A stretch of 52,600 nt of DNA from a virus. Location of the stretch: positions 1 through 52,600 of IMG/VR virus record IMGVR_UViG_3300046003_005111; one strand, written 5' to 3'. The notes under the pieces are model-generated. The model was not told where the DNA came from, searched no databases, and worked only from the letters and a program-made list of their open reading frames with translations. The position numbers were made by a program, and so were the translations under genes. Positions 8,601 to 47,263 of this stretch are shown here, one piece after another. Each line of letters starts with the position of its first letter. Position 1 is the stretch's first letter.

Positions 8601-11559
8601 TCCAAATAAATGAAGTTTGAATTGACCCATATTTTGAAACATCTTCAACACCTGGTTCAATATAATAATTTTCAATACCACCCTCTCTCTTTATTCTAAT
8701 AGCTCTGGTTAACTCACTATTAGCTCTAACTTGTAAACCGTTATCATCTTGTAATAAATGAAATATACTAACATTTTTACCAGCTGTAATGTATGGGGTA
8801 AAAACAACATCTTCAGTACCTTTTTGAGCTTTTGCAGCTCTTTTAAATAACCTAGTATCAGCACCTCTTAATTTACTCTGATAGTCTGGGGAGTACTTGT
8901 TATTACCAAGATTTGAAAATAAGAAAAATCTTTGCGCTCTACCAGTTTCATCTAGTCTATCAATAACTCTATTTTCTAATTTATCTTCTATTCTTGAGTT
9001 ACCACTATCATTTGCACCAAAACATGTTGGTCTTAAAACAATAGAATCGTCTTCAAAGAATTCAGATGTTAATCCACCTAAATTAGTGATATCTGAAATA
9101 AAACTAGCTAATTTACCTAAACCACCTTTAAATGTTGTGATATCAGCGTTACCTCTTTCAATTATTGATGATGGGTCTTTAATAAATTCAATAACTTTAA
9201 GTGGGTTTTTTAACATATCATCAATAGTTGTTAAACCAGCCACCTCTTGAGCTGTTTTAGTTAATAGTCTTGTTTTTAAATGAAATTTTAATTCCAAGGC
9301 ACCTATTTGTGCTAATAACGTATCATTTTTTAAACCAGGTTCCGTTAATAAATTAGTGATATCTAAATTAGGACCTAATAGAACGCTCAACGGAGTTGAT
9401 GCTGTAGGTACGTTTAAGAAATCACCCATCTTTATATTAACTGGGTCGGAATTGTTTAATTTATCTTCTGTAAGATATGGATTTTGTGGTGTATTTGGTG
9501 TATTATTTAATAATAAATTCTCTAAAATTTCATAAACAATAGTATTTTCAGCACCATATTTATTGGTTACTACGTTTTTTGTATAGTCAGTTGTAAGCGA
9601 TGATAATTGTGCTTGATTAGGTACAATAAAATCATTTATCAATGTTGCTGTACCAACTGGGATAGCACCTGGGTTAGACAAAGCAAAAGCGTCTGTTGGA
9701 TCTGTTGGATCCTTTGCCATATTTTTATTAAACAAACTGATCATTATTGGACCAGATAATGTACCAATATCACCAGGGTTAACATTTGAAAATGTACTTA
9801 TTTGTGATAATGTACCTCTACCAGCTAAATATTGAGCAGCAACTGACGCACTTGGTGATAATGTTGTAATACCAGCAGCAACATCAATTGGTGTGTTTAA
9901 TGTCATTGAGATGTTTAAAGCTCTTGGTGTTACAGAGTCTGTAAGAACATCACCAGGATTAACAACATTAAAGTTATTAATTGTTGTATCTAAACCTCTA
10001 CCAGCTAAGTATTGTGATGCGATTAAACCTGAAGGTGTTAAATTAACAATACCAGCGGCGATATCAGCTGGTGTGTTCAAATTCATCGCAAGATCCAATG
10101 TTCTTGGTGCAAATGAATCGGTAACAATATTACCAGGGTTTATGTTAATATAATCATTAATAACACTATTTAAACCTCTACCAGCTAAATATTGTGCAGC
10201 CAAAGAACCGCTTAATGATGTAACCCCAGCAGTGATGTCCGCAGGTGTATTTAATGTTCGTGCAAAGTTTGAATTTCTTGGTATTACAGAGTCTGTAACA
10301 ACATTACCAGGATTTACATTAGGTAAAGTTGTAATCGCAATAAATGTACCTTTACCTGAAAGATATTGTGCAGCGTAGGCACCACTTAAATTTGTTAATC
10401 CAGCTGTTATATCAACTGGTGTACTTAATGTTTGTGCAAAGTTTTGTGTTCTTGGTCCTACAGCTTGTGTTATAACATTACCAGGATTTACATTAGGTAA
10501 AGTTGTGATAGCAACAAATGTACCTTTACCTGAAAGATATTGTGCGGCTAAAGAAGCACTAGGGCTTAAGTTATTTACACCAACAGTGATATCCGTAGGT
10601 GTACTTAATGTTTGAGCAAAGTTTTGTGTTCTTGGTGTTATGGCTTGTGATATAACGTCACCAGAGTTAACAACATTAAATGTATTGATAACACTAGGTG
10701 TTCCAAGACCTGATAAATATTGAGCAGCAAACGATGCGTTAGGTGTTAAGTTGTTTACGCCAGCGGTGATGTCTGTTGGTGTACCGATGTTCATTGCAAG
10801 GTCTAATGTCCTTGGTGCAACCGAATCGGTTACTACATCCCCAGAGTTAGTATTTTGGAAATTATTAATTACCGTAAAAGCACCCTTACCAGAAAGGTAT
10901 TGGGCTGCGTATGTTGCGTTAGGCGTTAAATTTTGTACACCAGCAGTAATATCAGCTGGTGTGTTTAATGTCATAGCAAAATCCAAATTTCTTGGTGCAA
11001 CGGCATCTGATAATACATTACCAGGGTTAATATTAATAAAATCATTAACAATTGTTAAAGCGCCTCTACCTGAAAGATACTGAGCCGCAATCGCTGCATT
11101 AGGTGTTAAGTTATTTACACCAGTAGTAATATCTGTAGGTGTATTTAATGTATGTGATAAACCCAAATTTCTTGGCGCAACAGATTCTGTTAGCGCATCA
11201 CTTGGGTTTGTATTTGAAAAATCGTTTATTACTGTTAATTGACCTTTACTATTAACTAAAGAAGCTACATAAGCAGCACTTGTAGTTGTGTTAAGTAAAC
11301 CAGCATTAATGTCAGCTGGTGTATTTAATGTTTTATTAAGGTTTGCTGTTCTTGCTGGGATACCATTAGTATCAACATCACCAGGGTTTTGTACGTTATA
11401 AAAATGTATTGCGGTATCTTGTCCCAATGAACTTAAATACGCATTAACTGTAACCGAATTAGTTAGATTAACTAAACCAGTTACAACATCAGGTGGGGCC
11501 TGTAAATTTAAATTAAGGATCACATTCCTAAACTGTCCCGATATACTATTTAAGCTCAT
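2698..11559 (-). CDS. Giant tail/baseplate protein with N-terminal repeats and GTSG tract
   Basis: At 2953 residues this is by far the largest gene. Residues about 17-602 are ten tandem repeats of 58-61 residues, each opening with a form of [10 protein letters not shown] and containing AAQYLSG and NPGDV. Residues about 840-1275 look like a conserved tail core: a Cys-containing segment ([14 protein letters not shown]), later [17 protein letters not shown], and then [21 protein letters not shown], a form seen in large phage tail or baseplate proteins. Residues about 2636-2671 are a collagen-like Gly-Thr-Ser tract. The C-terminal 250 residues are helical and Lys-rich. It lies directly downstream of the tape measures and upstream of the gp53-like gene, so a hub, wedge or fibre-bearing baseplate protein is inferred. 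A late-type motif lies 6-14 bases before the ATG. I cannot name the exact T4 counterpart. Confidence 0.8.
3546..3660 (-). repeat. Gly-Thr-Ser collagen-like triplet tract
   Basis: About twelve in-frame triplets, almost all Gly-Thr-Ser with one Gly-Ile-Ser, encode residues about 2636-2671 of the giant protein. At the DNA level there are near-identical 9- and 18-base units in part of the tract and synonymous variants elsewhere. Such tracts in phage fibres and baseplate proteins can form collagen-like triple helices or flexible linkers. As the unit is a multiple of three, gain or loss of copies would not break the frame. Confidence 0.9.
9754..11511 (-). repeat. Ten tandem ~180-bp coding repeats (60-residue units)
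   Basis: Ten in-frame units encode residues about 17-602 of the giant tail protein. Units are 60 residues long, except the first (61), the two shortened ones (58, units 7 and 8) and the last, which is cut off after about 49 residues. The consensus opens with [18 protein letters not shown], continues AAQYLSGKG, then a variable hydrophobic stretch, [13 protein letters not shown] and a variable tail ending in AMT or AQT. The outer copies (1, 2 and 10) are the most divergent and the middle ones the most alike, the pattern expected from unequal exchange inside an array. The whole set stays in frame. Confidence 0.9.
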
Positions 11560-30813: not shown

Positions 30814-33800
30814 ATGGCTGAATACAAAATATCCCTTGAAGAAATAGAAAGATTTTTAAATGGACACGATGATGAGAAATACATCGTTAATGTTGAGTAT
30901 GACGCTGAAACAAATTTAATTCATAAAATTAAACAAGACCCTGAAAAAGGTAATTTAATTGAGACAGAACCTTTAATGGCTTTTATGTGGATTAAAAATC
31001 TTAACAAGGTTAAGGATTTAACTAATTTTTATGATAACAGTGATTCTAAAATTAAATCAGCTAGACAAAGATTTGGTATTGAAATCAAATCTTTAGGTGG
31101 TGATCACCCAAAATTATTAGAAGGTTATAGATATTTAGTTACCTGTAATCAAGGTAATAAAAGAATGTTAGATTTCTTCAGAGAAGGTGGTATCTACGTA
31201 TATGACACAAGAAACGATATTAAATCACACTTTTTAATGATATCACCTGTTGAGCAATATTTTATACACACTGGTAAACGTTTGTTTAAAGGGTTTGAAG
31301 AATATGATGATATCCATAAATTTATATTTGACTTAGAGACAACAGGTTTAGACCCAAATATTAATAGAATATTCTTGATTGGTATCTACACTAATAAAGG
31401 TGTTAAAGAAATCATACCAGTTGAAAATAATGATGAATCTGAAAGACAAGCAATCACAAAATTCTTCGAAGTTATTAATAATATTAAACCAACAATTATT
31501 GCTGGTTATAATAGCGCTAACTTTGATTGGGATTTCTTTTTTGTCCGTTGCCAAAAACTTGGTTTAGATATTCAAGATATTGCGATAACACTTAAACCAG
31601 GTGAACTTATCCAAAGAAAAGAAAAAAGTATGCTTAAACTTGGTAATGAGGTAGAGGAATATACCCAAACTAATATGTTTGGTTATAGCATCATTGACAT
31701 CATACACTCAGCTAGACGTGCACAAGCGATTGATTCAAGCATGAAATCTGTTGGTTTAAAATACGTTTGTAAGTATAACAAGATCGCCAAAAAGAATCGT
31801 GTTTACATTGTCGGTGATAAAATCGGTAACACATGGTACTCAGAAGATAAATTCTATTTTGATGATAGAACTGGCGCATATTCTAAGACAAAACCAGCTT
31901 TAGAATTTATGGATTATATTCGTAGAGAAGATATCCAAGCTAACCCAGATAAAGTGTTTATTTTTGGTGATAACTTATTAAGAGAAGGTCTTGGTGGTCA
32001 GGCAAAAGAAATGCGTGGTGAACCTAATGTTATTGGTATTGTAACTAAACATTCACCTGATTCAAATCCAGAATCTTATTTCAACGACAAAGATTTTGAT
32101 AACCTTAAAAAATATATTGATTCTGATATTAATCGAATAATTGAAAAGATTAAAGAAGGTAAAACTATCGTATTCCCTAAAATGGGTATTGGTACAGGTT
32201 TGGCCCAGTTAGATATGAGAGCACCAAAAACCTTTAAATATTTAGTAGGTTTATTACGTGCATTACGTGATTATAGTAATTCTTTTCAAGAAGTTGATGG
32301 TAAATACATTGTTGAGCGCTACTTGATTGATGACTTATGGGAAACCATGGAAGTTGATGCTGTTTATAACCAATCATCATTTTTGTTAGCTAAATTAGTA
32401 CCAACAACATATCAAAGGGTTTCAACAATGGGTACTGCTGGTTTATGGAAATTGCTTATGATGGCTTATTCTTTTGAAAATGATCTAGCTATACCATTAT
32501 CTGATACAAAAAGAGATTATACAGGTGGTTTATCAAGGTTATTTAAAGTTGGATATTCAACAACTTTAAGAAAAATGGATTACAACTCACTTTACCCAGC
32601 TATTCAGTTAGCTCATGATGTATTCCCAAGTGTTGATGTTAATGGTGCGATGAAATCGATGTTAAAGTATTTTCACACTGAACGTTTTAATGCTAAAAGA
32701 TTATCTGATAAATATAAAAAAGAGGGTAACTACCAATTAGCTGATAAATATAAACGTAAACAGTTACCGCTTAAGATCTTCATTAACTCGATGTTCGGTG
32801 CACTTGGAGCCCCAATGGCTTTCCAATGGGCTGAAATCGATGTCAGTGAACGTATTACATGTACGGCAAGACAATACCTTAGATTAATGGTTACATACTT
32901 CCTTAAACGAGGTTATACACCTTTGGTTCTTGATACGGATGGTGTAAACTTTATGGCACCTAAAAACGGTGAGCATTATACATATGTTGGTAAAGGGTTA
33001 AATGATGAGGTTGAAGCTGGTAAAGAATACACAGGTGTTAAAGCTGTTGTGGCTGAATTTAACGACACATACATGCGTGGTGAAATGGGTCTTGGTTTAG
33101 ACGGTATTTGGCCAGCAACCATAAATCTATCAAGAAAAAACTATGCTTTATTAGAAGATGATGGGTCGATTAGCTTAACAGGTAATAGTATCAAATCAAA
33201 AGCTATGCCTGTTTATATTGAGGAGTTTTTGGGTAAAGGTATGAAAATATTATTGAATGGTCATGGTTATGACTTTGTTCAATATTACTATGAATATGCT
33301 GAAAAGGTCTATAATAAAGAAATACCGTTGTCTAAGATCGCTACAAAAGCTAGGGTTAAGAAGTCAATAAACGGTTATATAAATCGTGGTGGTGATAAAA
33401 ACGGTAGACAATTAGCTAAACAAGCGCACATGGAATTAGCTATTAAACATAATCTTGATGTTAATCTTGGTGATACAATTTATTATGTTAATAATGGTAA
33501 AACAAAATCACATGGTGATGCTCAGGAAGATAAAAATGGTGAAATGTATGCGACATTGGTATCGAATGAGATCATTGAGAATAAACCAGACTATATTGGT
33601 GAATATAATGTACCAAAATACTTGGAAGCTTTAAATAAAAAAGTTGAACCACTATTGGTTGCTTTTCCCCTTGAAATTAGAGATAAAATTCTTATTAAAA
33701 AACCTGATGAAAGAAAAATGTTCTTAAGATCTGAATTAGATTTGGTAAATGACCAACCAACAGATATCGAAGATCAAGACACATTACAAGAATTTTTTAC

Positions 33801-33915
33801 ACCATCCCCAATGGAAAAAGAATTCTGGGCTAAAATGGAATATGAATCAGATTATTGGTTTTCAGATAAAATAACATTCAAAATACCTGGTTTGGATGAA
33901 GAATTTACGGTTTAG
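30814..33915 (+). CDS. DNA polymerase, family B, with a nested extra domain
   Basis: The 1033-residue replicative polymerase has both activities. Exonuclease: Exo I FDLETTGLDP (Asp173, Glu175), Exo II NSANFDWDFF (Asp238), Exo III YLIDD near residue 502. Polymerase: motif A KMDYNSLYPAIQ (Asp589), motif B KIFINSMFGALGAP (Lys654, Asn658), motif C LDTDGVNF (Asp707, Asp709). Motif C has Gly where most family B enzymes have Ser. Between Exo II and Exo III, residues about 368-488 form a domain not belonging to the polymerase fold: PDKVFIFGDNLLREGLGGQA, VIGIVTKHSPDSNPESYF and MGIGTGLAQLDMRAPKTF. That pattern is found as a stand-alone, macro-domain-like family in bacteria and phages. No intein splice residues are visible. 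The gene has its own Bacteroidota-type promoter. Confidence 0.93.
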   Translation: MAEYKISLEEIERFLNGHDDEKYIVNVEYDAETNLIHKIKQDPEKGNLIETEPLMAFMWIKNLNKVKDLTNFYDNSDSKIKSARQRFGIEIKSLGGDHPKLLEGYRYLVTCNQGNKRMLDFFREGGIYVYDTRNDIKSHFLMISPVEQYFIHTGKRLFKGFEEYDDIHKFIFDLETTGLDPNINRIFLIGIYTNKGVKEIIPVENNDESERQAITKFFEVINNIKPTIIAGYNSANFDWDFFFVRCQKLGLDIQDIAITLKPGELIQRKEKSMLKLGNEVEEYTQTNMFGYSIIDIIHSARRAQAIDSSMKSVGLKYVCKYNKIAKKNRVYIVGDKIGNTWYSEDKFYFDDRTGAYSKTKPALEFMDYIRREDIQANPDKVFIFGDNLLREGLGGQAKEMRGEPNVIGIVTKHSPDSNPESYFNDKDFDNLKKYIDSDINRIIEKIKEGKTIVFPKMGIGTGLAQLDMRAPKTFKYLVGLLRALRDYSNSFQEVDGKYIVERYLIDDLWETMEVDAVYNQSSFLLAKLVPTTYQRVSTMGTAGLWKLLMMAYSFENDLAIPLSDTKRDYTGGLSRLFKVGYSTTLRKMDYNSLYPAIQLAHDVFPSVDVNGAMKSMLKYFHTERFNAKRLSDKYKKEGNYQLADKYKRKQLPLKIFINSMFGALGAPMAFQWAEIDVSERITCTARQYLRLMVTYFLKRGYTPLVLDTDGVNFMAPKNGEHYTYVGKGLNDEVEAGKEYTGVKAVVAEFNDTYMRGEMGLGLDGIWPATINLSRKNYALLEDDGSISLTGNSIKSKAMPVYIEEFLGKGMKILLNGHGYDFVQYYYEYAEKVYNKEIPLSKIATKARVKKSINGYINRGGDKNGRQLAKQAHMELAIKHNLDVNLGDTIYYVNNGKTKSHGDAQEDKNGEMYATLVSNEIIENKPDYIGEYNVPKYLEALNKKVEPLLVAFPLEIRDKILIKKPDERKMFLRSELDLVNDQPTDIEDQDTLQEFFTPSPMEKEFWAKMEYESDYWFSDKITFKIPGLDEEFTV

Positions 33916-36880: not shown

Positions 36881-38101
36881 ATGGGTAAAATTAATATACT
36901 AGTACAACCAAATGACCGAGCTGGTTCAGGTAAATATAGATGTGTGGATCCACATGTAACCTTACAGAACAATAACCCTCAAGATTTTTTTGTTGAAATT
37001 AATGAAAATGTTAATTTTAATGATGATAATTATTTGAAAAAATTTGAGTTATTCTTTTTCCATAGAGCTCCAGGTGGTAATTATTTACAGGGTGTTGAAA
37101 TTATTAAAAAAATTAAATCTTTTGGTGGTAAGGTTATCATCGATTTAGATGACCACTGGAATTTAGACCCATCACATGGTTTATATCAAACATCAAAAAA
37201 GAATGATATACCTCTTCATACTATTAATATCATAAAAGAAGCTGATCTGGTGACAGTATCAACACACTTCTTACAAAAAGAAGTTTTAAAACACAATAAA
37301 AAATGTGTTATTTTGGCTAACGCAATAAACCCAAATGAAACACAATTTAAACCAACACCTAGTGAGTCCGATAAGTTAAGATTCGGTTGGTTAGGTGGTT
37401 CCTCACACGTTAAAGATATTGAATTATTAAAAAGCATACCTCAAAAATCAAATGGATGTGGTGATAAAATGCAAATTGTGTTATGTGGTTACGATACAAG
37501 AGGTGTTGTTAGGGCTTTAAATCCGCAAACAGGTGAAATGATGGAAAGAGATATGCAACCTGTTGAAACAACTTGGTTTATGTATGAAATATTCCTAACT
37601 GACCATTTTAAAACAATTAAAGATCAGGAGTATGTTAAACATTTAATGAAATTCGATTCGACATTAAATTACGATGATAAAAATATGCCATATAAAAGAG
37701 TATGGACCAAACCTATTGATACATATGCAAAAGGTTATAATGAGTTTGATGTTGCTTTAGCCCCATTAAATGATAGTTCTTTTAATAAATACAAATCTCA
37801 ATTAAAGGTAATTGAAGCTGGGTTCCATAAAAAAGCTATAATCGCTCAGAATTATGGACCGTACACCATTGATTTGGTTTCTGCAATTGAAAAGGGTGGT
37901 GGGTTTAACTCAAAAGGTAATTCTTTATTAGTAGATTCAAATAAGAACCACAAACAATGGGTTCAACATATCAAAAGATTAATTGATAACCCAAATCTTG
38001 TTAAAGATCTTGGAGAAAAATTATATGAGACTGTTAAAGACAAATATGATATAAATTACGTAACAAAATTAAGATCTGAAATATATAAAACATTAATATA
38101 A
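36881..38101 (+). CDS. Glycosyltransferase, GT-B fold
   Basis: The 406-residue protein has two Rossmann-like halves. The N-terminal half starts KINILVQPNDRAGSGKYRCV (about 3-22) and contains FFFHRAPGG and KVIIDLDDHWNLDPSHG; a DLDD motif like this, followed by a helix and VTVSTHFLQKEVL, is typical of CgeB- or GT4-like enzymes. The second half begins LRFGWLGGSSHVKDIELL and has FDVALAPLNDSSFNKYKSQL and KVIEAGFHKKAIIAQNYGPY, the nucleotide-sugar binding region of GT4-like enzymes, where Glu of KVIEAG contacts the donor. It is the first gene of the sugar block. Donor and acceptor cannot be read from sequence. Confidence 0.8.
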   Translation: MGKINILVQPNDRAGSGKYRCVDPHVTLQNNNPQDFFVEINENVNFNDDNYLKKFELFFFHRAPGGNYLQGVEIIKKIKSFGGKVIIDLDDHWNLDPSHGLYQTSKKNDIPLHTINIIKEADLVTVSTHFLQKEVLKHNKKCVILANAINPNETQFKPTPSESDKLRFGWLGGSSHVKDIELLKSIPQKSNGCGDKMQIVLCGYDTRGVVRALNPQTGEMMERDMQPVETTWFMYEIFLTDHFKTIKDQEYVKHLMKFDSTLNYDDKNMPYKRVWTKPIDTYAKGYNEFDVALAPLNDSSFNKYKSQLKVIEAGFHKKAIIAQNYGPYTIDLVSAIEKGGGFNSKGNSLLVDSNKNHKQWVQHIKRLIDNPNLVKDLGEKLYETVKDKYDINYVTKLRSEIYKTLI

Positions 38102-38102
38102 C

Positions 38103-38687
38103 ATGAACGACAAATTAGGAAATTTAGATATGGGTGAACTTTTTGATGATGAAATGAAAAGTGAATTGGATAGCATATTAAAACAAACTCAGAACATGAT
38201 GGGTGATTGGGATTATGACCCAGCTTCAATGTCAATTAAGTTAAAAGTGTCTTTTATTAACAAATCAAATAACCCTGACCCAACCTATGAAAAGGAAGGC
38301 GATAGTGGTTTTGATATTAGAGCTTTTATTGATGAACCAATTGAAATTGAACCAGGTTGTAGAACCTTAATAAAAACAGGTTTATATTTTGAAATACCTT
38401 ATGGTTATGAATTACAAGTTAGATCTAGAAGTGGTTTAGCTTTAAATAACGGTGTTGTTGTTTTAAATAGCCCTGGTACTGTTGATTCTGGATACAGAGG
38501 TGAGATTGGTGTTATTCTATACAATACAGATAAATTAAACCCTTTTTATGTAGATAATGGTGATAGAATTGCACAAGGTGTTATCGCTGCTGTACAAACA
38601 ATGGGTAAAACAAAATTTATAAAAACTGATACACTATCAAGTAGTGATAGAGGTTCTGGTGGTTTTGGTTCAACTGGTGTTAGTTAA
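38103..38687 (+). CDS. dut: dUTP diphosphatase (dUTPase)
   Basis: The protein hydrolyses dUTP to dUMP, keeping uracil out of DNA and supplying dTMP synthesis. All five trimeric-dUTPase motifs are present: motif 1 GDSGFDIRA, motif 2 VRSRSGLAL, motif 3 GTVDSGYRGEIGVIL with the catalytic Asp and the uracil-binding Tyr, motif 4 GDRIAQGVIA and motif 5 RGSGGFGSTG. At 194 residues it is longer than the usual 136-155 because of an acidic N-terminal extension of about 50 residues (MNDKLGNLDMGELFDD and on). A later start at Met47 or Met56 is conceivable, but the first ATG follows two bases after the previous stop. It is coupled to the next gene by TAATG. Confidence 0.95.
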   Translation: MNDKLGNLDMGELFDDEMKSELDSILKQTQNMMGDWDYDPASMSIKLKVSFINKSNNPDPTYEKEGDSGFDIRAFIDEPIEIEPGCRTLIKTGLYFEIPYGYELQVRSRSGLALNNGVVVLNSPGTVDSGYRGEIGVILYNTDKLNPFYVDNGDRIAQGVIAAVQTMGKTKFIKTDTLSSSDRGSGGFGSTGVS

Positions 38688-38992
38688 TGATAGTATTTAA
38701 AGACCAAATAAGAGCTTATAAAGCGATCACACCTGATATTTTAAACCAAATAGAATATAAAACTGTTTGGTCTGGTAAAAGAATTGAGGTTGGTGATAAA
38801 GTTTTGTATGCGTTTGTGTACCCTTTAAATTCAGAGGATTATAAATTAGCTACATTTCTTGAGCGTGAACTTGATGAGGTTAATCAAATGTTTACGTTCA
38901 TTCAAACAATAAAAGGTATTATACCAGTGTTAAAATATAAAAATGATAATCTTGTAAGAGATTTAATCATAGAAGAAGAGAATGAGTTATAA
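38687..38992 (+). CDS. Small unknown protein
   Basis: This 101-residue protein has no family that I recognise. It has a mixed composition with a strand-rich centre (YKTVWSGKRIEVGDKVLYAF) and a helical part with FLERELDEVNQMFTFIQTI, ending in an acidic tail. Start and stop are coupled to neighbours: a one-base overlap with dUTPase and an 11-base overlap with the following glycosyltransferase. A real gene by packing. Confidence 0.55.
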   Translation: MIVFKDQIRAYKAITPDILNQIEYKTVWSGKRIEVGDKVLYAFVYPLNSEDYKLATFLERELDEVNQMFTFIQTIKGIIPVLKYKNDNLVRDLIIEEENEL

Positions 38993-40418
38993 AATTAGTG
39001 TTGTTTTCTCAACAAGAAAAATAGATGAAAATTTTATTGAGCATGTTAAGAAAACATGTATACATAAAGGTGTTGAGGTTTTGCCGTATGAAAATAACGG
39101 TGAGTATTCTTTAACAGAAATATATAATAAAGGTTTAAACGATGCGTCAAGTGACATAGTTGTTTTTTGTCACGATGACATATTATTTGAGACAAAAAAT
39201 TGGGGTGAAAAAGTTTTAAAAGCTTTTGAAAAAAACCATGAATATGGTATCCTTGGTGTTGCTGGTACTGATCATATGATTAGTGGTAGGTGGTGGCAAA
39301 TACGTAATGCCATGTATGGTACTGTTAAACATACTGACGGTACTAATGTTTGGGTAAGTAAATATTCTCAAAACTATGGTAACGAGTTAAAAGAAATGGT
39401 TGTTATTGACGGTTTATTTATTGCTGTTAATAGAACTAGGATAAAAACTATTTTTGATGATCGATTTAAAGGTTTTCATTTTTATGATATATCATTTTGT
39501 TTATCGAACCATGTTAACGGTATAAAAATAGGTTTAATCTCAAATATTTTAATATTACATAAATCCGTTGGTCAAGTTAATGAACAATGGGGTGAAAATA
39601 AAACTTTATTTGAAGAAATATATGGTAATCAATTACCAATATGTTTGAATGATAAAACAAAACATATAATCTTTGATAAAGAATTACCAAAGATCGACAT
39701 GCATGTTCTTTGTTGGAATGAAGAAAAGATAATACCTTATTTTTTAAAACACTATGAGAATTTTGTTAGTAATATTTATGTTTATGACAATATATCAAAT
39801 GATAATAGTGTTAAATTATTAAAGTCACACCCAAAAGTTACGGTAATACCATATGATACTAATGGTGAAATTAGAGATGATATTTATTTACAAATAAAAA
39901 ATAACGCGTGGAAAAACTCAACGGATAAAGCTGATATCGTTATTGTGTGTGACATGGATGAATTTTTATATAGTAATGATTTAAAAAAATCAATCAATAA
40001 ATTTTATGAAAGTGATGCGACTGTTATTAAACCAACTGGTTATGATATGGTTGTAAACGATTTCCAATTTAATCATGGTGATAAATTAACTAATCTTGTT
40101 AAAACTGGGTATAAAAATAACCTTTTTGATAAATTAGTTATGTTTAAAACAAAAAATATAACGGAAATAAATTATAATGGTGGTTGCCATGTTGCAGCAC
40201 CTAGGGGTGATAAAATTAAATTATTTGAAGGTGAATTTTTACTTTTACACTACAAAAGACTCGGTTTAAAATATTTTTTAAATAAAATGTCTGATTATAA
40301 AAAAAGGTTAAGTGAATTTAATAAAAAACATAAACTTGGTTATGAATATGAATTTAATAGTGATAAACACACCGAAGATTTTAATAAATCTTTAGGTAAA
40401 ATATCTTATGTCATCTAA
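38982..40418 (+). CDS. Two-domain glycosyltransferase (GT-A + GT2/GT92-like)
   Basis: The 478-residue protein looks like two fused GT-A enzymes. Residues 1-215: YKISVVFSTRKID, DIVVFCHDDILFETKNW (the DD of a nucleotide-sugar and metal site) and GWW-type GRWWQIRNAMY. Residues 225-478: IDMHVLCWNEEKIIPYFLKH, VYDNISNDNSV, and VIVCDMDEFLYSNDL, where DMDE is the metal-binding motif, with a C-terminal HYKRLGLKYF block. The second half resembles the GT2/GT92-like group that adds sugars in surface glycans. Fusion of two transferases suggests it adds two residues in turn. It overlaps the preceding gene by 11 bases. Sugars cannot be deduced. Confidence 0.75.
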   Translation: MSYKISVVFSTRKIDENFIEHVKKTCIHKGVEVLPYENNGEYSLTEIYNKGLNDASSDIVVFCHDDILFETKNWGEKVLKAFEKNHEYGILGVAGTDHMISGRWWQIRNAMYGTVKHTDGTNVWVSKYSQNYGNELKEMVVIDGLFIAVNRTRIKTIFDDRFKGFHFYDISFCLSNHVNGIKIGLISNILILHKSVGQVNEQWGENKTLFEEIYGNQLPICLNDKTKHIIFDKELPKIDMHVLCWNEEKIIPYFLKHYENFVSNIYVYDNISNDNSVKLLKSHPKVTVIPYDTNGEIRDDIYLQIKNNAWKNSTDKADIVIVCDMDEFLYSNDLKKSINKFYESDATVIKPTGYDMVVNDFQFNHGDKLTNLVKTGYKNNLFDKLVMFKTKNITEINYNGGCHVAAPRGDKIKLFEGEFLLLHYKRLGLKYFLNKMSDYKKRLSEFNKKHKLGYEYEFNSDKHTEDFNKSLGKISYVI

Positions 40419-40424
40419 TTCATA

Positions 40425-40444
40425 ACTATTTATATTAAATAAAA
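40425..40444 (+). promoter_or_regulatory. Late-type promoter before the fucosyltransferase gene
   Basis: ACTATTTATATTAAATAAAA, ending 6 bases before the ATG at 40451, shares TATTTATATTAAATAA with the element at 47975-47993, and both lie at the same distance (20 bases from TATATTAAAT to the start codon). It places at least this part of the sugar block under late control. Confidence 0.55.
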
Positions 40445-40450
40445 TACTAT

Positions 40451-41608
40451 ATGGGATTTTTTAGGATTAAAAAAATAATAAAAGATAATGATAATAATCA
40501 GGTTGATTATAATATAACAAAAGGTTTTATAAAAGAGGAAAGGTTAGGATTACCTGAAACACCAAAAAAAACAACAATAAGAAAAAGTTATACAGCTGGA
40601 AATAAAATTGAACCAAATACGGAAAAAATATCAGTGATAATTAAAAAAGGTAGTTATTCTGTTGACGTTAAAAAAATTTTTAAAGAAAAAGATATTTCTG
40701 TTGATACTGTTACTTCTGTTGATACTGTTACTTCTTTTGATACTGTTACTTCTTTTGATACTGTTACAGCTCTCGAACCTACAGAAGAAAAAATAAAAAA
40801 AAGAAAATACGGTATGAATGGTTGTGTTTTTTCAAAAACAATTGGATCCAACGGAAGATTAGGTAATCAATTATTTCAATTTGCTGCGATATATGGCTAT
40901 GCCATGGATAATAATAAAAAATATTCGGTATCAAATTGGGTTTGCGCTCGCTCTGGTAAAGATTTTAAAAAATATTTTAACGGACCGCTTATATCAACAC
41001 CTATTAACGATGAAGCGGTGGAAATAAATTATATTGAAACAGATTTTGATTATAACGAAATACCGTATATTAAAGAAAATCTTAACATATGTGGATATTT
41101 CCAATCTGAATTATACTTTAAAAAATATACTGATGATGTAATTGATATATTACAACCATCTATTGATTTACATTTAGATTTAAGGATAAAATATTCAAAC
41201 ATTAATTTTAAAAAAACAGCTTCATTACATGTTAGAAGAGGGGATTACCTATCTTTAGGTAGTTTTTATAATCAATTAACAATTGATAATTATTATACTA
41301 AAGCTATAGAAGAGTTAACAAAAAATGGGGTTGAGGATATATTAATATTCTCAGATGATATAAAATGGTGTAAAGAAAATTTTAAAGGTGATAACTTTTA
41401 TTTTTCTGAAGGGAACTCAGAAATAGAAGATTTATTTTTAATGAGTTTTTGTTCACACAATATAATAGCGAACTCAAGTTTTTCGTGGTGGGGAGCTTTT
41501 TTAAATAAAAATAAGGATAAAATTGTTATAGCACCAAAAAAATGGTGGGGTGTTATTAATAATATGAATGAAAATACCATAATACCAGAAACATGGGTGA
41601 GATTATAG
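40451..41608 (+). CDS. Alpha-1,2-fucosyltransferase-like, GT11
   Basis: Residues about 120-385 are a GT11 enzyme, with motif I SNGRLGNQLFQFAAIYGYA, the GDP-fucose-binding ASLHVRRGDYLSLG (about 257-270) and NSSFSWWGAFLN (about 339-350). The HxRRGDY and SSFSWWGA motifs are diagnostic of alpha-1,2-fucosyltransferases and their close kin, which move fucose from GDP-fucose to a galactose or similar acceptor. The N-terminal 115 residues are extra: a basic region, then four six-residue repeats around DTVTS. Family members normally start close to motif I. The gene has its own late-type promoter and overlaps the next gene by 16 bases. That the host supplies GDP-fucose is an inference. Confidence 0.88.
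   Translation: MGFFRIKKIIKDNDNNQVDYNITKGFIKEERLGLPETPKKTTIRKSYTAGNKIEPNTEKISVIIKKGSYSVDVKKIFKEKDISVDTVTSVDTVTSFDTVTSFDTVTALEPTEEKIKKRKYGMNGCVFSKTIGSNGRLGNQLFQFAAIYGYAMDNNKKYSVSNWVCARSGKDFKKYFNGPLISTPINDEAVEINYIETDFDYNEIPYIKENLNICGYFQSELYFKKYTDDVIDILQPSIDLHLDLRIKYSNINFKKTASLHVRRGDYLSLGSFYNQLTIDNYYTKAIEELTKNGVEDILIFSDDIKWCKENFKGDNFYFSEGNSEIEDLFLMSFCSHNIIANSSFSWWGAFLNKNKDKIVIAPKKWWGVINNMNENTIIPETWVRL
40700..40771 (+). repeat. Four tandem 18-bp repeats in the fucosyltransferase gene
   Basis: Units at 40700-40717, 40718-40735, 40736-40753 and 40754-40771 differ at a few bases only and encode six residues each, reading VDTVTS twice, FDTVTS and FDTVTA. The first two units are identical, and the third differs at one base. 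The unit is a multiple of three, so slippage would change length without breaking the frame. Each unit has a DTV, which fits the D-(S/T)-(A/I/L/V/M/T) O-glycosylation sequon of Bacteroidota. Confidence 0.9.
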
Positions 41609-42423
41609 ATTTAAAAGACACCACATTCATTATACCGATAATGATAGATAGTCAAGACAGGGTTGATAATTTAACTATTAACTTAAATTTCTTAGCTAAA
41701 AATTTTAACACAAATGTTATTATTTTTGAATTAAAGAAACCAGGTTATAATGTTGTTGACAACATTATAAAAAAATTGGTAAAAAACAAATTAAAAATTA
41801 CGTATCTTTATGAGGTGGTTGAATTAACAAATGAAAGACCAGAAATAATTTTTCATAGAACAAAATACCTTAATATGATGCTTAATATGGTTAAAACAGA
41901 TTTTGTTGTTAACTATGATGTTGACGTTTTATTAAACCCATTAGATTATGTTTTATGTGTTAATAAGTTAAAAGATGATTGTGATGTGGTTTATCCGTAT
42001 TTTTTTGGTTTATCACAAAGAGCTGTATTAAATAGTGGTAAGAATAAATTATTAGAATCCTTTGATCTTAATTTATTAACAGAAAATGATTACAAACTAA
42101 ACCAAAATCGTTTTGGTTTGGCCCAATTCTTTAAAACTAGTGTTTACATTGAAGGTGGTATGGAAAATGAACATTTTATATCATACGGACCAGAAGATTT
42201 TGAAAGAGCTCATAGGTTTAAAGTTTTAGATTATAATGTTGAGTGGGCTGATATTTATATATACCATATTGAACATAGTAGAGGTGATAATAGTAGTAAT
42301 AAAAACCCATATTTTAGTAAAAATAATGAGTTATATAGTAGTCTTAATGGTTTAAATAAAAAAGAGCTAAAAATGTATTACGATACTATTGATTATAAGA
42401 ATTTATATAAAAAAAATGGGTGA
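41593..42423 (+). CDS. Galactosyltransferase-like GT-A enzyme
   Basis: The 276-residue protein begins with a GT2-type strand, TTFIIPIMIDSQDRVDNLTI, has the metal-binding DVDVLLNPLDYV (in VNYDVDV, about 114) and a C-terminal domain with GGMENEHFISYGPEDFERAH and VEWADIYIYHIEHSRG. A Gly-Gly-Met-x-Glu, then GPEDxE layout, is that of the beta-1,4-galactosyltransferase-type acceptor and catalytic domain (Glyco_transf_7C). It overlaps the GT11 gene by 16 bases and the GT25-like gene by 8 bases (ATGGGTGA). The donor may be UDP-galactose or a related sugar. Confidence 0.75.
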   Translation: MGEIIDLKDTTFIIPIMIDSQDRVDNLTINLNFLAKNFNTNVIIFELKKPGYNVVDNIIKKLVKNKLKITYLYEVVELTNERPEIIFHRTKYLNMMLNMVKTDFVVNYDVDVLLNPLDYVLCVNKLKDDCDVVYPYFFGLSQRAVLNSGKNKLLESFDLNLLTENDYKLNQNRFGLAQFFKTSVYIEGGMENEHFISYGPEDFERAHRFKVLDYNVEWADIYIYHIEHSRGDNSSNKNPYFSKNNELYSSLNGLNKKELKMYYDTIDYKNLYKKNG

Positions 42424-43159
42424 TAAGATAAATTTTCAGAAGATTAATTTTAAATATATTAATCTAAAAAGTAGGGTGGATAGAAAAAATCGTGTTGACG
42501 CGTATTTAAAAAATAACGGTATTATTGCTGAAAGATTTGATGCGATAAAAGATTTTAGTAATTGTAATATTAATTTTGGTAAAAATTATAATGATGGAAC
42601 TAAAGGTTGTTTTTTATCACATTATAATATCATAAAAGAATATGACAGTAATAAAGTATTGGGAATACTAGAGGATGATATTGTTTTATGTAGCGATTTC
42701 ACCGAAAGATTTAAATATATTGAGGATAATTTTAACCTTGATTGGGATATGTTTTTCTTATCATCATTTTATCATTTAAACGATGATAAAAATAGACACC
42801 ATGAAACTGGTGATTATGAATTTAGTGGGATTAAATATATCCATAGAACATACGGGTCATTTTGTACGCACTCATATTTAGTTAACCCAAAATCAAAAGA
42901 AAAAATATTAAGATTAATGGAAGAGAACGTTCATAAATCAAACGCTCTCGACCACCTGTATATACTAATACAACACCAATTAAATGTTTTTGCAATAACG
43001 CCTGGTATAACAACACAACTAGGTGATCATAGTGACATAACAAACAGTATGTTAGACCATACAGATTATTTCACAAAGGTACTTGGCCAACATTGTTATG
43101 TTGATAAATTGAGTGAATTTAATTACGATGAATACTTTAAATATAAAATAACAAAATAA
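42416..43159 (+). CDS. Glycosyltransferase family 25 (LPS-type)
   Basis: The protein is 247 residues long from the start at 42416; a start at 42389 would add nine residues but would lie deeper in the upstream gene. It has GT25 marks: KYINLKSRVDRKNRVDAYLK at the N-terminus, KGCFLSHYNIIKEY (about 57-70), LGILEDDIVLCSDF with the catalytic-metal EDD (about 78), then a Tyr-rich region, and a C-terminus with FAITPGITTQLGDHSDI. GT25 enzymes add galactose or glucose to bacterial lipooligosaccharide or to hydroxylysine. The 8-base overlap with the previous gene (ATGGGTGA) indicates coupling. Acceptor unknown. Confidence 0.82.
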   Translation: MGDKINFQKINFKYINLKSRVDRKNRVDAYLKNNGIIAERFDAIKDFSNCNINFGKNYNDGTKGCFLSHYNIIKEYDSNKVLGILEDDIVLCSDFTERFKYIEDNFNLDWDMFFLSSFYHLNDDKNRHHETGDYEFSGIKYIHRTYGSFCTHSYLVNPKSKEKILRLMEENVHKSNALDHLYILIQHQLNVFAITPGITTQLGDHSDITNSMLDHTDYFTKVLGQHCYVDKLSEFNYDEYFKYKITK

Positions 43160-43163
43160 AATT

Positions 43164-43913
43164 ATGAAAGATATAGCTAAAAACATAAAAAAATACTATT
43201 TTAATAACGATGGCTTAAAATATGTGATAAATAATTTTGATTACTTAACAACCGAATACCATATTTCAAGTGATGAATATATAGACGCTTCTGGTGTCTA
43301 CGTTTTAATGAAAAGGGTTATTGATCTTATGGATAAAGATAAGGTTGTTATTGACATAGGTGGTAATTGCGGTTTAACATCAATCCCATTTTGTTTAAAT
43401 GGTTATGAGGTTTATACATTTGAACCGATTAAAATGAATGTCGATTTAATAGAGATGAATAAAATCGAAAATAAATGTGATAACTTAAATATAGTACCAT
43501 ACGCTCTAAGTGATAAAACAAAAGAGGAGATAATATATATACCGTATTGTTCTGATAACACATCTTTTAACAAAGACGTAGCTGTTAGTAATATGAATGA
43601 TAAGAGTATATGTGTTGAAGAAACCGTTAATTGTATAACATTTGATGAATGGTTAGAAAATAACGGGCAAATAAATATCGGGTTTATAAAAATAGATGTG
43701 CAAGGTCACGAAAAGAATGTTCTAGAAGGTATGGTTAATTTTCTATCAAATTGTAATGACGTTTATCTTTTTATTGAATGGGATGGAAACCACACAATGA
43801 TGTCTGGTAATACACTAGAAGAAATGGAATCGCTATTAAATCGTACTGGGTTTAATGAAAAAAACCTATTCAATAGGGATCTATATGATGATAAAATTTT
43901 TTATAAAAAATAA
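43164..43913 (+). CDS. FkbM-family methyltransferase
   Basis: The 249-residue protein has the SAM-binding motif I VVIDIGGNCGLTSIPFCLNG (about 59-78), the acidic end of strand 2 in VYTFEPIKMNVDLI (about 82-95), motif IV FIKIDVQGHEKNVLEGM (about 173-189), and a C-terminal part with VYLFIEWDG. FkbM enzymes are O-methyltransferases that often cap sugars in surface polysaccharides or natural products. Its place straight after three glycosyltransferases suggests that it methylates the same glycan. It starts 4 bases after the previous stop. Confidence 0.85.
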   Translation: MKDIAKNIKKYYFNNDGLKYVINNFDYLTTEYHISSDEYIDASGVYVLMKRVIDLMDKDKVVIDIGGNCGLTSIPFCLNGYEVYTFEPIKMNVDLIEMNKIENKCDNLNIVPYALSDKTKEEIIYIPYCSDNTSFNKDVAVSNMNDKSICVEETVNCITFDEWLENNGQINIGFIKIDVQGHEKNVLEGMVNFLSNCNDVYLFIEWDGNHTMMSGNTLEEMESLLNRTGFNEKNLFNRDLYDDKIFYKK

Positions 43914-43926
43914 AACATAAAAAAAT

Positions 43927-44691
43927 ATGAGTACAAGACAAACAAAACCAACAACAAAAAAAACAAGAAAAAAATTAACATCTGAAGAAGAGTTTGAAGC
44001 TCTTGAAGATATGAACCGTGCACATGCTGGTAATGTATTAGATAAAATGAAGGTTGATATTAAGTGTAAAACCCAAAATCAAAAGAAACTCATTACTGAG
44101 ATAAAAGATAAAGAGATTGTTATTTGTTCGGGACTCCCAGGTACAGGGAAAACTTTTTTATCTTGTGCTGTAGCTTTAGAACTTCTTAAAAGTGATCCTA
44201 GATACCGAAAAATTGTCATTGTTAAATCAGTAACAACTTTAAAAGATGAGGAAATTGGGTTTTTAAAAGGTACCATGAAAGAAAAGATGGAACCGTTTAT
44301 GTACTCTTTTATGCATAATTTTGAAAAAGTAATTGGTAAACATAGTGTTGAGCTTTTAAGAGCCAATAACATGATTGAAGAAATGCCAATTGCGTATATG
44401 AGGGGTATTAATATTGATAACTCAATCACAATTATCGATGAGGCTCAAAACATATCTATTGATAATATTAGAACTATCATGACCAGACTTGGTGAGAATT
44501 CTAAAATGATATTTTTAGGGGATGAAAATCAGATTGATATGAAAAAGAAGGGTGAAAGCTCTTTGAATTTCATCATCCAAAAATTTAGTAATTTTGATGA
44601 GGTTGGTACAGTAACATTAGGTGAAGATGATGTCGTTAGAAACCCATTGATCAAAAAAATAGAAAAAATATTTAACGAAAGTAAAATGTAG
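43927..44691 (+). CDS. phoH: PhoH-like ATPase
   Basis: The 254-residue protein has a Walker A GLPGTGKTFLSCAVA (about 67-81), then VKSVTTLKDEEIGFLKGTM, a sensor region with AYMRGINIDNSITIIDEAQN where IIDEAQN is Walker B (about 167-173), and MIFLGDENQIDMK (about 194-206). These define the PhoH domain, an ATPase/helicase-like group common in T4-like and marine phages. The N-terminus (MSTRQTKPTTKKTRKKL) is a basic tail and ends in a helix with Ala/His/Asn. It is longer and more basic at the N-terminus than minimal PhoH. Its precise role in phages is unknown; RNA processing is suspected. Confidence 0.9.
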   Translation: MSTRQTKPTTKKTRKKLTSEEEFEALEDMNRAHAGNVLDKMKVDIKCKTQNQKKLITEIKDKEIVICSGLPGTGKTFLSCAVALELLKSDPRYRKIVIVKSVTTLKDEEIGFLKGTMKEKMEPFMYSFMHNFEKVIGKHSVELLRANNMIEEMPIAYMRGINIDNSITIIDEAQNISIDNIRTIMTRLGENSKMIFLGDENQIDMKKKGESSLNFIIQKFSNFDEVGTVTLGEDDVVRNPLIKKIEKIFNESKM

Positions 44692-44741
44692 ACTTTATTT
44701 TAAACCAAAATTGTGTTATTTTTATATAAAAAAATGATAAC

Positions 44742-45377
44742 ATGGTAATAGGTATTACAATAAATAACATTTTAAGGGAACACATTAGTAAACTAAAGGA
44801 TTTATATGAATTTGAGTTTGAAAAAGAACCCATTTTACCTATAAATCCTTTTGATTTATCTAAATCATTCCCAGATATTGAAGGTGAGATTGTCGACACT
44901 AATTTTGAGGTTGGTAAAGAATTAGAGTTATCTGAAAATAAAAAAGATAATTCATTTAACCTGAGTAAATTCATGTATGAAGATGCGTGTTTTGAGGTAT
45001 TTGGTCGAGTTGAGGAAAGTCAACCTGGTATCATTAAACAAGTATGTGATTTCTCTAACAAAAATAAAATCAAAATCGTATTATTAAATAATGAAAGCCA
45101 AAGATCTAAATCAGCTACATTATTCTTCCTAAGTAAAAACTATTATAATTTAGAACAGATAATCTTTCCAAGCAAATGGAAAGATTTTTGGTCGTATTGT
45201 GATATCTTGGTTACCGATAACCCTAAGTTATTAAAAAACAAACCAAAAGATAAAATATCTATAAAACATAAAAACGATTTTAATGTTGATATTAAATCGG
45301 ATTATACTATAATTAACATTGAAGAATTATTTAAAATTTTAAAAAAATTAAAGAAAGAACAAAATGGAAAAAACTAA
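44742..45377 (+). CDS. Degenerate HAD-like protein
   Basis: The 211-residue protein has the look of a HAD-fold nucleotidase that lost its active site. It starts MVIGITINNILREHISKLKD; I recall related phage proteins with IGIDxNxVLRD at this position, where the first Asp is the nucleophile, so here the motif reads TxN. The other blocks are present in weak form: IKIVLLNNESQRSKSATLFF (motif II region), then FPSKWKDFWSYCDILVTDNP with a Lys and an Asp at motif III-IV. Residues 25-75 form an acidic insertion. The loss of the nucleophile is a direct reading; the family is by pattern only. It overlaps the next gene by 14 bases. Confidence 0.6.
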   Translation: MVIGITINNILREHISKLKDLYEFEFEKEPILPINPFDLSKSFPDIEGEIVDTNFEVGKELELSENKKDNSFNLSKFMYEDACFEVFGRVEESQPGIIKQVCDFSNKNKIKIVLLNNESQRSKSATLFFLSKNYYNLEQIIFPSKWKDFWSYCDILVTDNPKLLKNKPKDKISIKHKNDFNVDIKSDYTIINIEELFKILKKLKKEQNGKN

Positions 45378-46446
45378 CGAAATAGTTAAAAACATTGAGT
45401 CGGCTATAAGCAAGATTCAAAACAAAGAACAAAAAATTGTTTTTTTGGTGCCAGACACCAAAGGTAACGCTAAATCAAGCGTTATCCACCTCTATAAACA
45501 AGCGTTAACACTTAAAAATTTAGGTTATAGTGTTAGTATGTTACATGAGAAAAATGACTACATTAAAGTTGGTTCATGGTTGACACCAGAATGCGATGAA
45601 TTAGAACATTTATCAATTGAAGATAACAATCTTGTTGTTGGGGCTTCTGATTTTATCATAGTACCAGAAGTGTATGGTAACGTATTTGAACAAATTAATA
45701 AAATGCCTTTAGAAAAGGTTATTTACATACAATCATTTGATTATATGCTTGAAGCTTTCGCACCTGGTAAATCTTGGGTTGATTTAGGTGCTGAAGAATG
45801 TATAACAACGTCAAACTCACTTAAAACATTGATTGAGGATACGGTTCCAGTTGTAGATGTTCAATTTATCGAACCATCGATTTCAGATAAAACGTTTACT
45901 TTAAACGATAAACCACAAAAACCTATTATTGCTATCTATTGTCGTGAGGCTAGAAAAGCGGCAAAAATTATCAAATCATTCTATTTGAAATACCCTATTT
46001 ATAGATTTGTTTCATTTAAAGATATGCATACAATGCCACAAGATACTTTTGCTAATAACTTAAAAGAATGTTGTGTTTCTATATGGATTGATGATGATTC
46101 GTCATTCGGTAGATACCCAGTTGAATCTATTAAGTGTAATGTACCTGTTATTGGTAAAGTACCTAATATTATCCCAGAATGGATGACAGATGAAAATGGT
46201 GTTTGGGTTTATGATGAAAATCAAATACCCGAAATTTTATCTAGTTACATTAAAAATTGGTTAGAAGATACTTTACCAGAGAATTTATTAAATGTCGCAA
46301 AAACAGTTGAAAATAAATACACTGAAGAAGTTTTTGAAAAGAATACTAAAGAGGTTTATGAATACCTTTTCAATAAAAAAATCTCGAAATTAGAAACAAT
46401 AAAAGAAAATTTTAAAAAAGAAGTAGAACAAAATGAGCAAAACTAA
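45364..46446 (+). CDS. Glycosyltransferase, GT-B fold (GT4-like)
   Basis: The 360-residue protein has an N-terminal Rossmann domain, IVFLVPDTKGNAKSSVIHLY (about 25-44), followed by DFIIVPEVYGNVFEQI and VIYIQSFDYMLEAF, and a C-terminal domain with IIAIYCREARKAAKIIKSFY, CCVSIWIDDDSSFGRYPVES and IKCNVPVIGKVPNIIPEWM. The SFGRYPVES motif stands where GT4 enzymes hold the donor-binding EGFGxxxxE loop. The end of the protein is a Lys/Glu-rich coiled coil. It overlaps by 14 bases with both neighbours. Substrates are unknown. Confidence 0.7.
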   Translation: MEKTNEIVKNIESAISKIQNKEQKIVFLVPDTKGNAKSSVIHLYKQALTLKNLGYSVSMLHEKNDYIKVGSWLTPECDELEHLSIEDNNLVVGASDFIIVPEVYGNVFEQINKMPLEKVIYIQSFDYMLEAFAPGKSWVDLGAEECITTSNSLKTLIEDTVPVVDVQFIEPSISDKTFTLNDKPQKPIIAIYCREARKAAKIIKSFYLKYPIYRFVSFKDMHTMPQDTFANNLKECCVSIWIDDDSSFGRYPVESIKCNVPVIGKVPNIIPEWMTDENGVWVYDENQIPEILSSYIKNWLEDTLPENLLNVAKTVENKYTEEVFEKNTKEVYEYLFNKKISKLETIKENFKKEVEQNEQN

Positions 46447-47263
46447 TTTAACAGTTATAATCCCAGTACACTCAGTTGCTGATATTGGGAAACAAAAATT
46501 TGATGATTTATTCGATATCGCATTATCGTCTATTAGTAGAAATGAGGTTAAACCAGAAAAGGTTTTAATTGTAAGATGCAATTGTATTGAAGTTGACGCT
46601 AAATTAGAGTCAATTGATTTAACAAAATATGATTTAAATATTGAAATCATAACAAATGATGGTGATACTGATTACCAGAGCCAAATAAATTACGCGGCTA
46701 AGCATGTTAACACCGAATACATGTCAATTTTGGAGTTTGATGATGAGGTATCAAAAACATGGTACAGTAATGTTAAAACACATGTTGCGGCCTACCCAGA
46801 AGTTGATATGTTTTTACCTATTGTTAATGATGTTTCTGAGGACAACAACTTTATAGGTTTATCAAATGAAGCTATTTGGGCTTATAATTTTAGTGAATCA
46901 CTTGGTAATGTTGATTTAGAGTGTTTATTAGAATACCCGAATATCAACCCTTGTGGTATGGTTATTAAAACAGCTATTTTTAACGAGATTAATGGGTTTA
47001 AACAAATCAAATTAACATTCAACTATGAGTTTTTACTACGTTTTCATAAAAACGGTTACAAGTCAATGGTTATCCCGAAAATCGGTTACAAACACGTTAA
47101 TATGAGGGAAGAATCGTTGTTCTGGTTATATAAAAACAGTGAAGCTGTAGAATACAAAATGGACCCTAAACAAGCATTATTTTGGATGGAAACAGCTAAA
47201 AAAGAATATTTATTTAACGATGATAGACATATAATATATGAGGAAAATGAGGTTATTGAGTAA
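46433..47263 (+). CDS. Family 2 glycosyltransferase
   Basis: The 276-residue protein is a GT-A enzyme of family 2: LTVIIPVHSVADIGKQKFDD (about 6-25) with FDIALSSISRN, IEIITNDGDTDYQSQINYAA, the metal-site region MSILEFDDEVSKTWYSNV with DDE (about 102), then IKTAIFNEINGFKQIKLTFN and LLRFHKNGYKSMVIP near the end. It overlaps the preceding GT-B gene by 14 bases and the sigma-factor gene by one base (TAATG). The pair of GT-B and GT2 enzymes probably acts on a single glycan. Specificity is unknown. Confidence 0.8.
   Translation: MSKTNLTVIIPVHSVADIGKQKFDDLFDIALSSISRNEVKPEKVLIVRCNCIEVDAKLESIDLTKYDLNIEIITNDGDTDYQSQINYAAKHVNTEYMSILEFDDEVSKTWYSNVKTHVAAYPEVDMFLPIVNDVSEDNNFIGLSNEAIWAYNFSESLGNVDLECLLEYPNINPCGMVIKTAIFNEINGFKQIKLTFNYEFLLRFHKNGYKSMVIPKIGYKHVNMREESLFWLYKNSEAVEYKMDPKQALFWMETAKKEYLFNDDRHIIYEENEVIE

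Follow-up and report, generated by a model that had tools for sequence, protein, structure and literature searches.

A DUF7831 domain distantly related to DarG-type macrodomains nested in the exonuclease region of a phage family B DNA polymerase

In a group of aquatic bacterial viruses, the proofreading region of the family B DNA polymerase (PolB) contains a domain of the DUF7831 family. The addition is clean, amounts to about 116 residues, and falls between the exonuclease motifs Exo II and Exo III, in the loop that leads into the latter. The example analyzed here comes from one IMG/VR virus record, of which the window (the whole stretch analyzed) comprises 52,600 bases; it is a piece of the genome of a contractile-tailed phage, with genes for a tail sheath, a T4-type baseplate protein, and PhoH. 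Literature searches found no paper that names DUF7831 and gave no report of a macrodomain inside a DNA polymerase; the DUF7831-in-PolB architecture was likewise not found in the papers searched. DarTG blocks phage replication, and escape mutations are known to arise in PolB, hence the interest of a domain related to DarG at this position.

A COMPLETE DUF7831 DOMAIN WITHIN AN INTACT POLYMERASE

The gene that contains it (positions 30814–33915, + strand, 1,033 aa; defined from the open reading frame, its translation, Pfam/PHROGs matches, and a full-length model) encodes a family B DNA polymerase in which Exo I–III and polymerase motifs A–C are all intact. Pfam matches within it are DNA_pol_B_exo1, RNase_H_2, DNA_pol_B, and PF25176 (DUF7831), with PF03104 and PF00136 backing the family B assignment. 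In a 41-row alignment of relatives, invariant positions include D173 and E175 of Exo I (D173-L-E175; 31330–31338, +), D238 of Exo II (31525–31527, +), and Exo III itself, Y503-x3-D507 (32320–32334, +), which follows directly after the insert. The same holds for the motif A aspartate D589 of DYNSLYP (32578–32580, +), for K654, N658, and G662 of motif B (K654 to G662; 32773–32799, +), and for motif C, D707-T-D709 (32932–32940, +). The full-length model (pLDDT 87.4) finds its best structural match in PolB 6wyb (Z 27.8, 677 residues, rmsd 4.0). T4-like and archaeal polymerases (RB69 gp43, KOD, Pab PolB) share the fold, at Z 22.6–27.8, and Exo I–III and motifs A–C, but have a short loop where the window polymerase has DUF7831.

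Residues 364–478 (31903–32247, +) are a complete DUF7831 domain, supported by PF25176, phrog_2072, and the model of the isolated segment. The Pfam match covers profile positions 2–116 of 118 at E 5.7e-44 and 149.2 bits, where the curated cut-off is 27 bits; in PHROGs the insert also matches phrog_2072 (E 2.8e-14). The window copy belongs to the same family over its full length, and A406V is the only deviation among family-conserved residues. DUF7831 is usually a small stand-alone protein or a part of a giant polyprotein, whereas here it is nested in a DNA polymerase. An earlier note made from the letters alone had described a foreign domain between Exo II and Exo III, and this observation is confirmed, with its motifs VFIFGDNLLREGLGGQA, GIVTKHSPDS, and GIGTGLAQLDMRAP present as written; the borders it proposed, 31918–32277, marked the right site but have to be moved to those given above.

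Comparison with relatives places the borders closely. Two alignment-based scans yielded more than 100 IMG/VR loci with relatives, of which 81 polymerases were long enough to align. The distance between anchor residues 352 and 499 is 148–150 residues in 22 of them (150 in L054, 148 in the other 21) and 25–43 in the remaining 59, which lack the segment; the 81 are the best-scoring part of at least 574 relatives, so that 22 versus 59 is not a population estimate. Insert-free relatives, 49–56% identical over the matching parts, align up to about residue 356–360 and resume from about 479–491; in the insert-free L021, query residues 19–360 and then 481–1024 align at adjoining subject residues. The length of about 116 residues follows from these alignments, which run right up to both borders. 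The same uninterrupted reading frame recurs across different metagenomes, in more than 20 IMG/VR contigs, and is therefore not an assembly artifact.

Profile searches of the Pfam/PHROGs type detected neither intein nor endonuclease families in the reading frame, and the insert matches DUF7831 only; as the earlier note had held, the domain is not an intein and is retained in the polymerase. A recent intein or homing element is ruled out by this result together with purifying selection on the insert (see “History and selection”). A longer fusion, suggested by tblastn alignments to Caulobacter phages (query 270–484), was also rejected; these alignments were judged to reflect a by-chance open frame running into the end of the neighboring rIIB gene.

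PREDICTED FOLD AND DISTANT KINSHIP WITH DarG

Models fold the segment as a unit separate from the normal exonuclease fold. The isolated domain is modeled at pLDDT 94.8 from a 107-row alignment, and its secondary-structure elements return in unchanged order in the full-length model, with the numbering offset by 355. Four strands of at least three residues are predicted; a canonical macrodomain has a six-stranded mixed sheet (PMC5179494; PMC9503650), and with two of six strands missing the domain is therefore best called macrodomain-related and not a canonical macrodomain. A Foldseek search of the isolated domain against the PDB returned nothing below E 0.1, and the domain sequence, alone and as a 107-row profile, had no significant match in the PDB. 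In VIA-align the top five entries are all macrodomains, led by the Mycobacterium tuberculosis DarG macrodomain 5m3i (Z 6.6, rmsd 3.7, 109 residues); a Z of 6.6 lies within the range of unrelated folds, separation from chance beginning at Z 8. In a library of viral models the domain matches phage and giant-virus DUF7831 proteins as well as large proteins of crAss-like phages.

Profile comparison leads to DarG by an indirect route. The 107-row DUF7831 profile compared directly with a DarG-type profile gave a score of 24.1 (probability 14), which is not significant (1 of 40 column-shuffled profiles scored higher, at 26.5), and against MacroD-type macrodomains it gave no signal. The connection runs through A1S_2505-like phage proteins (VFVFGSN..IPTK..IGCGLAG), a sequence subfamily separate from DUF7831 with which it has phrog_2072 in common. 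DUF7831 matches this family with probability 94.7 and score 48 (maximum of 60 column-shuffled profiles, 20.8), and the family in turn matches DarG-type macrodomains with probability 94.2 and score 47 (maximum of 60 shuffled, 21.0). DUF7831 combined with the A1S_2505-like family scored 36.8 against strict DarG (maximum of 40 shuffled, 17.9), and the bridging results were unchanged when all polymerase-borne rows were removed. These profiles suggest that DUF7831 is a distant, transitive relative of DarG/TARG1-type macrodomains, linked via the A1S_2505-like intermediate only; the resemblance to a macrodomain noticed earlier holds in this sense.

The profile registers place FGDN/FGSN against VNTVN, IxTK against FPTK, and GIGTG/IGCGLAG against LGCGLGG. 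In these alignments N387 corresponds to DarG N22, T411-K412 to T79-K80, and G458–G462 to G117–G121, while P-x-x-GIGTG (residues 455–462) aligns with the glycine-rich ADP-ribose loop of DarG. In DarG, K80 is the catalytic lysine and K80A kills the enzyme; N22 is next in importance, and N22A strongly reduces activity; T79 and G117–G121 hold ADP-ribose (PMC5179494). The motif order (strand-N, glycine loop, T-K, strand-P-GxGxG) is common to the window domain, the macrodomain of the DNA ADP-ribosyl glycohydrolase DarG (5m3i, 5m31/5m3e), and TARG1. In contrast to these, the window domain lacks a middle segment of the fold.

POCKET RESIDUES AND THEIR DECAY

Four elements line up as a putative pocket. 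The FGDN motif (residues 384–387; 31963–31974, +) is conserved in 96–100% of 97 non-polymerase DUF7831 copies, and the GLGGQA loop (392–397; 31987–32004, +) is likewise made up of conserved positions. T411-K412 (32044–32049, +), recognized from the profile-alignment registers, is 98% conserved, and the GIGTG loop (458–462; 32185–32199, +) is supported by conservation and profile alignments.

Polymerase-borne copies were scored at the 29 positions where at least 85% of those 97 copies agree. The window copy retains 28 of the 29, and 15 of the 22 polymerase-borne copies retain 25–28. The other seven, from four lineages (L010–L013, L014, L183, and L184), keep only 18–21 and are altered at G385/D386, G395/A397, and T461/G462. 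N387 is present in all 22 and K412 in 21, the exception being K412R in L184. In L010 the change T461N introduces the residue that DarG has at the equivalent place (N120). Judged by sequence, these copies may either have lost activity or have a remodeled pocket; this partial decay in a single subclade is the main objection to a catalytic role for all copies.

HISTORY AND SELECTION

When the insert columns are left out of the PolB tree, 21 carriers group together in a single clade (SH-aLRT 100); L054 stands apart on a long branch, and at least two changes are needed. A tree of 110 DUF7831 domains unites every polymerase-borne copy, L054 included, in one group (SH-aLRT 93, or 96 with L054 removed). 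These trees are better explained by a single capture and later loss, or by movement of the domain between polymerases, than by two captures, on evidence that is only moderate because the DUF7831 tree has few columns. The polymerase-borne copies form one old clade, and the polymerases that carry them are 49–60% identical.

The insert evolves faster than the surrounding polymerase, yet under purifying selection: of 17 pairs, 16 have an insert dN/dS of 0.035–0.30 and the last has 0.50, compared with 0.006–0.13 for the polymerase core, with dS saturated in distant pairs. In all 26 insert-bearing records the insert is the sole DUF7831 copy. A shift of function between a stand-alone gene and the insert was considered and set aside, since only 2 of 50 records with insert-free PolB contain a stand-alone copy; many records are fragments, which makes this a weak test.

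POSSIBLE FUNCTION

DarT attaches ADP-ribose to single-stranded DNA and stops phage replication, and T-even PolB mutations have been reported to give escape from DarTG (PMC11348598; PMC11481870). Against this background we tentatively favor the reading that the DarG-related insert is an on-board module that binds or removes ADP-ribose and helps the polymerase cope with ADP-ribosylated DNA. DUF7831 has been captured into the exonuclease domain just before Exo III, where it folds as its own unit in the models and leaves the catalytic residues of exonuclease and polymerase intact. It would bind ADP-ribose on DNA (or nucleic acid) met by the polymerase, and copies with an intact pocket might also remove it, so that replication would not be blocked by a DNA ADP-ribosyltransferase such as DarT, putative in the host. 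The ligand, catalysis, DNA as the substrate, and a counter-defense role are what we infer from these comparisons. A more specific form, in which PolB acts as a built-in eraser that takes DarT-type adducts off the template at the fork and so provides an undescribed way past NAD-based defense, is somewhat unlikely in our estimate. The phage anti-DarT factors AdfN and AdfB and the PolB escape mutations would serve the same putative end, replication despite DNA ADP-ribosylation (PMC11481870; PMC11348598), but AdfN and AdfB are separate proteins and the escape changes are point mutations, whereas the window has a domain within the polymerase.

Other roles can be envisioned. The earlier note had proposed a metabolite sensor that sets the fidelity or speed of replication, an idea that is unsupported beyond speculation and leaves its interpretation, taken as a whole, partly supported. 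A domain beside Exo III could in principle let ADP-ribose, O-acyl-ADP-ribose, or a related signal shift the balance of polymerase and exonuclease or pause replication; some macrodomains are sensors (PMC9503650), and relatives of the domain are encoded beside SLOG, DUF4326, and sirtuin genes. Sensing alone, however, does not call for the equivalent of the DarG catalytic lysine found in 21 of 22 copies, and one subclade with an otherwise conserved polymerase has lost pocket glycines; we regard this role as quite unlikely. The nearest relatives with known activity are DNA ADP-ribose hydrolases, and an eraser or binder is therefore at least as likely as a sensor, although the decay in that subclade is explained well by neither. 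Alternatively, the domain may today serve chiefly in structure or in contacts with, for example, clamp, helicase, or DNA, its ancestral pocket having become dispensable: four lineages have decayed pockets while insert length stays fixed and selection purifying, and dN/dS of the insert among L014, L183, and L184 is 0.07–0.09 (dS saturated). A scaffold of this kind would have no need of the family motifs that 15 of 22 copies, the window among them, keep almost completely, which makes this reading unlikely as well.

It is likewise quite improbable that the polymerase merely carries a domain that processes soluble ADP-ribose derivatives from host defense. Stand-alone DUF7831 proteins occur in many phages (99 records), the family has other fusion partners, and DNA-virus versions of such domains have been proposed to act on small molecules (PMC9503650); still, that purpose could be served by fusion at a terminus or by a gene of its own, and burial at one fixed site of the exonuclease domain, at constant length in 21 of 22 copies, is left unexplained. 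Phage polymerases are common insertion targets, and related PolBs have LAGLIDADG insertions at motif C and split genes, as might suggest a selfish or neutral insertion (intein-like or a mobile domain) that brings no benefit. That is very improbable for a reading frame devoid of intein or endonuclease families, under purifying selection with dN/dS near 1 not seen, and with polymerase-borne copies that form one old clade. Under the favored reading of an ADP-ribose-binding or -removing module, an eraser-related domain fixed beside the PolB exonuclease site would represent a testable route by which a replicase internalizes counter-defense. Placing DUF7831 and the A1S_2505-like family near DarG would also provide the first functional hypothesis for DUF7831.

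RELATIVES IN OTHER CONTEXTS

Elsewhere DUF7831 is found in phages, bacteria, and giant viruses, either as a protein of its own or fused to other partners, in agreement with the stand-alone family anticipated for bacteria and phages. Co-directional SLOG genes (PF10686) lie within 17–715 bp of stand-alone DUF7831 genes at 12 loci, and DUF4326 within 156–169 bp at five. Viral ADP-ribose networks are described as combining SLOG, Macro, and DUF4326 domains (PMC9503650), and neighbors of these kinds, together with SIR2, support a substrate that may be related to ADP-ribose; neighborhood is not proof. In Acidobacteria, DUF7831 is fused to YpsA-type SLOG and DUF488; the DUF7831-DUF488 reading frames at L127:531–5582 and L123:3908–8338 exceed 1,400 aa, with the YpsA-type SLOG in L127. 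Giant virion proteins that bear N4-type virion RNA polymerase domains also contain DUF7831. Its presence in virion RNA polymerase polyproteins and in small stand-alone proteins points to a general ADP-ribose role and not one specific to DNA.

In the giant phage reading frames of L064, L065, L070, L076, L078, L086, L100–L102, L107–L110, and L117, DUF7831 lies near residue 1330, or at about 1005–1225 in truncated members of the set. N4-type virion RNA polymerase domains were seen in L064 and a weak 2OG-Fe(II) oxygenase match in L100.

One insert-free polymerase, from L022 (IMGVR_UViG_3300043436_004687) and 43–46% identical, has a C-terminal phrog_2072 domain instead (E 7e-13; L022:8280–8792). 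This A1S_2505-like domain has no T-K motif and sits at the other end of the polymerase from that of the window insert, which means that the phrog_2072 superfamily has joined PolB twice, at different places; the C-terminal fusion is a single case on one contig. The same 340-kb contig also has, at L301:509–3250, a phrog_2072 (A1S_2505-like) gene that lies between SIR2 and PRPP synthetase genes; it adjoins the latter, and the former is nearby and co-directional.

Some related polymerases are interrupted elsewhere. L028, L029, and L030 have about 330 extra aa at motif C (DTD), at about residues 631–960 of the PolB reading frame; L029 matches LAGLIDADG, which makes an intein probable. In L031 and L032 the PolB homolog is split into separate reading frames in the motif C region. 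Within the window itself, a glycosyltransferase cluster with an FkbM methyltransferase lies beside PhoH (36881–47263), and a single 2,953-aa reading frame on the minus strand (2698–11559), which weakly matches collagen repeats close to its C-terminus, is probably a tail protein.
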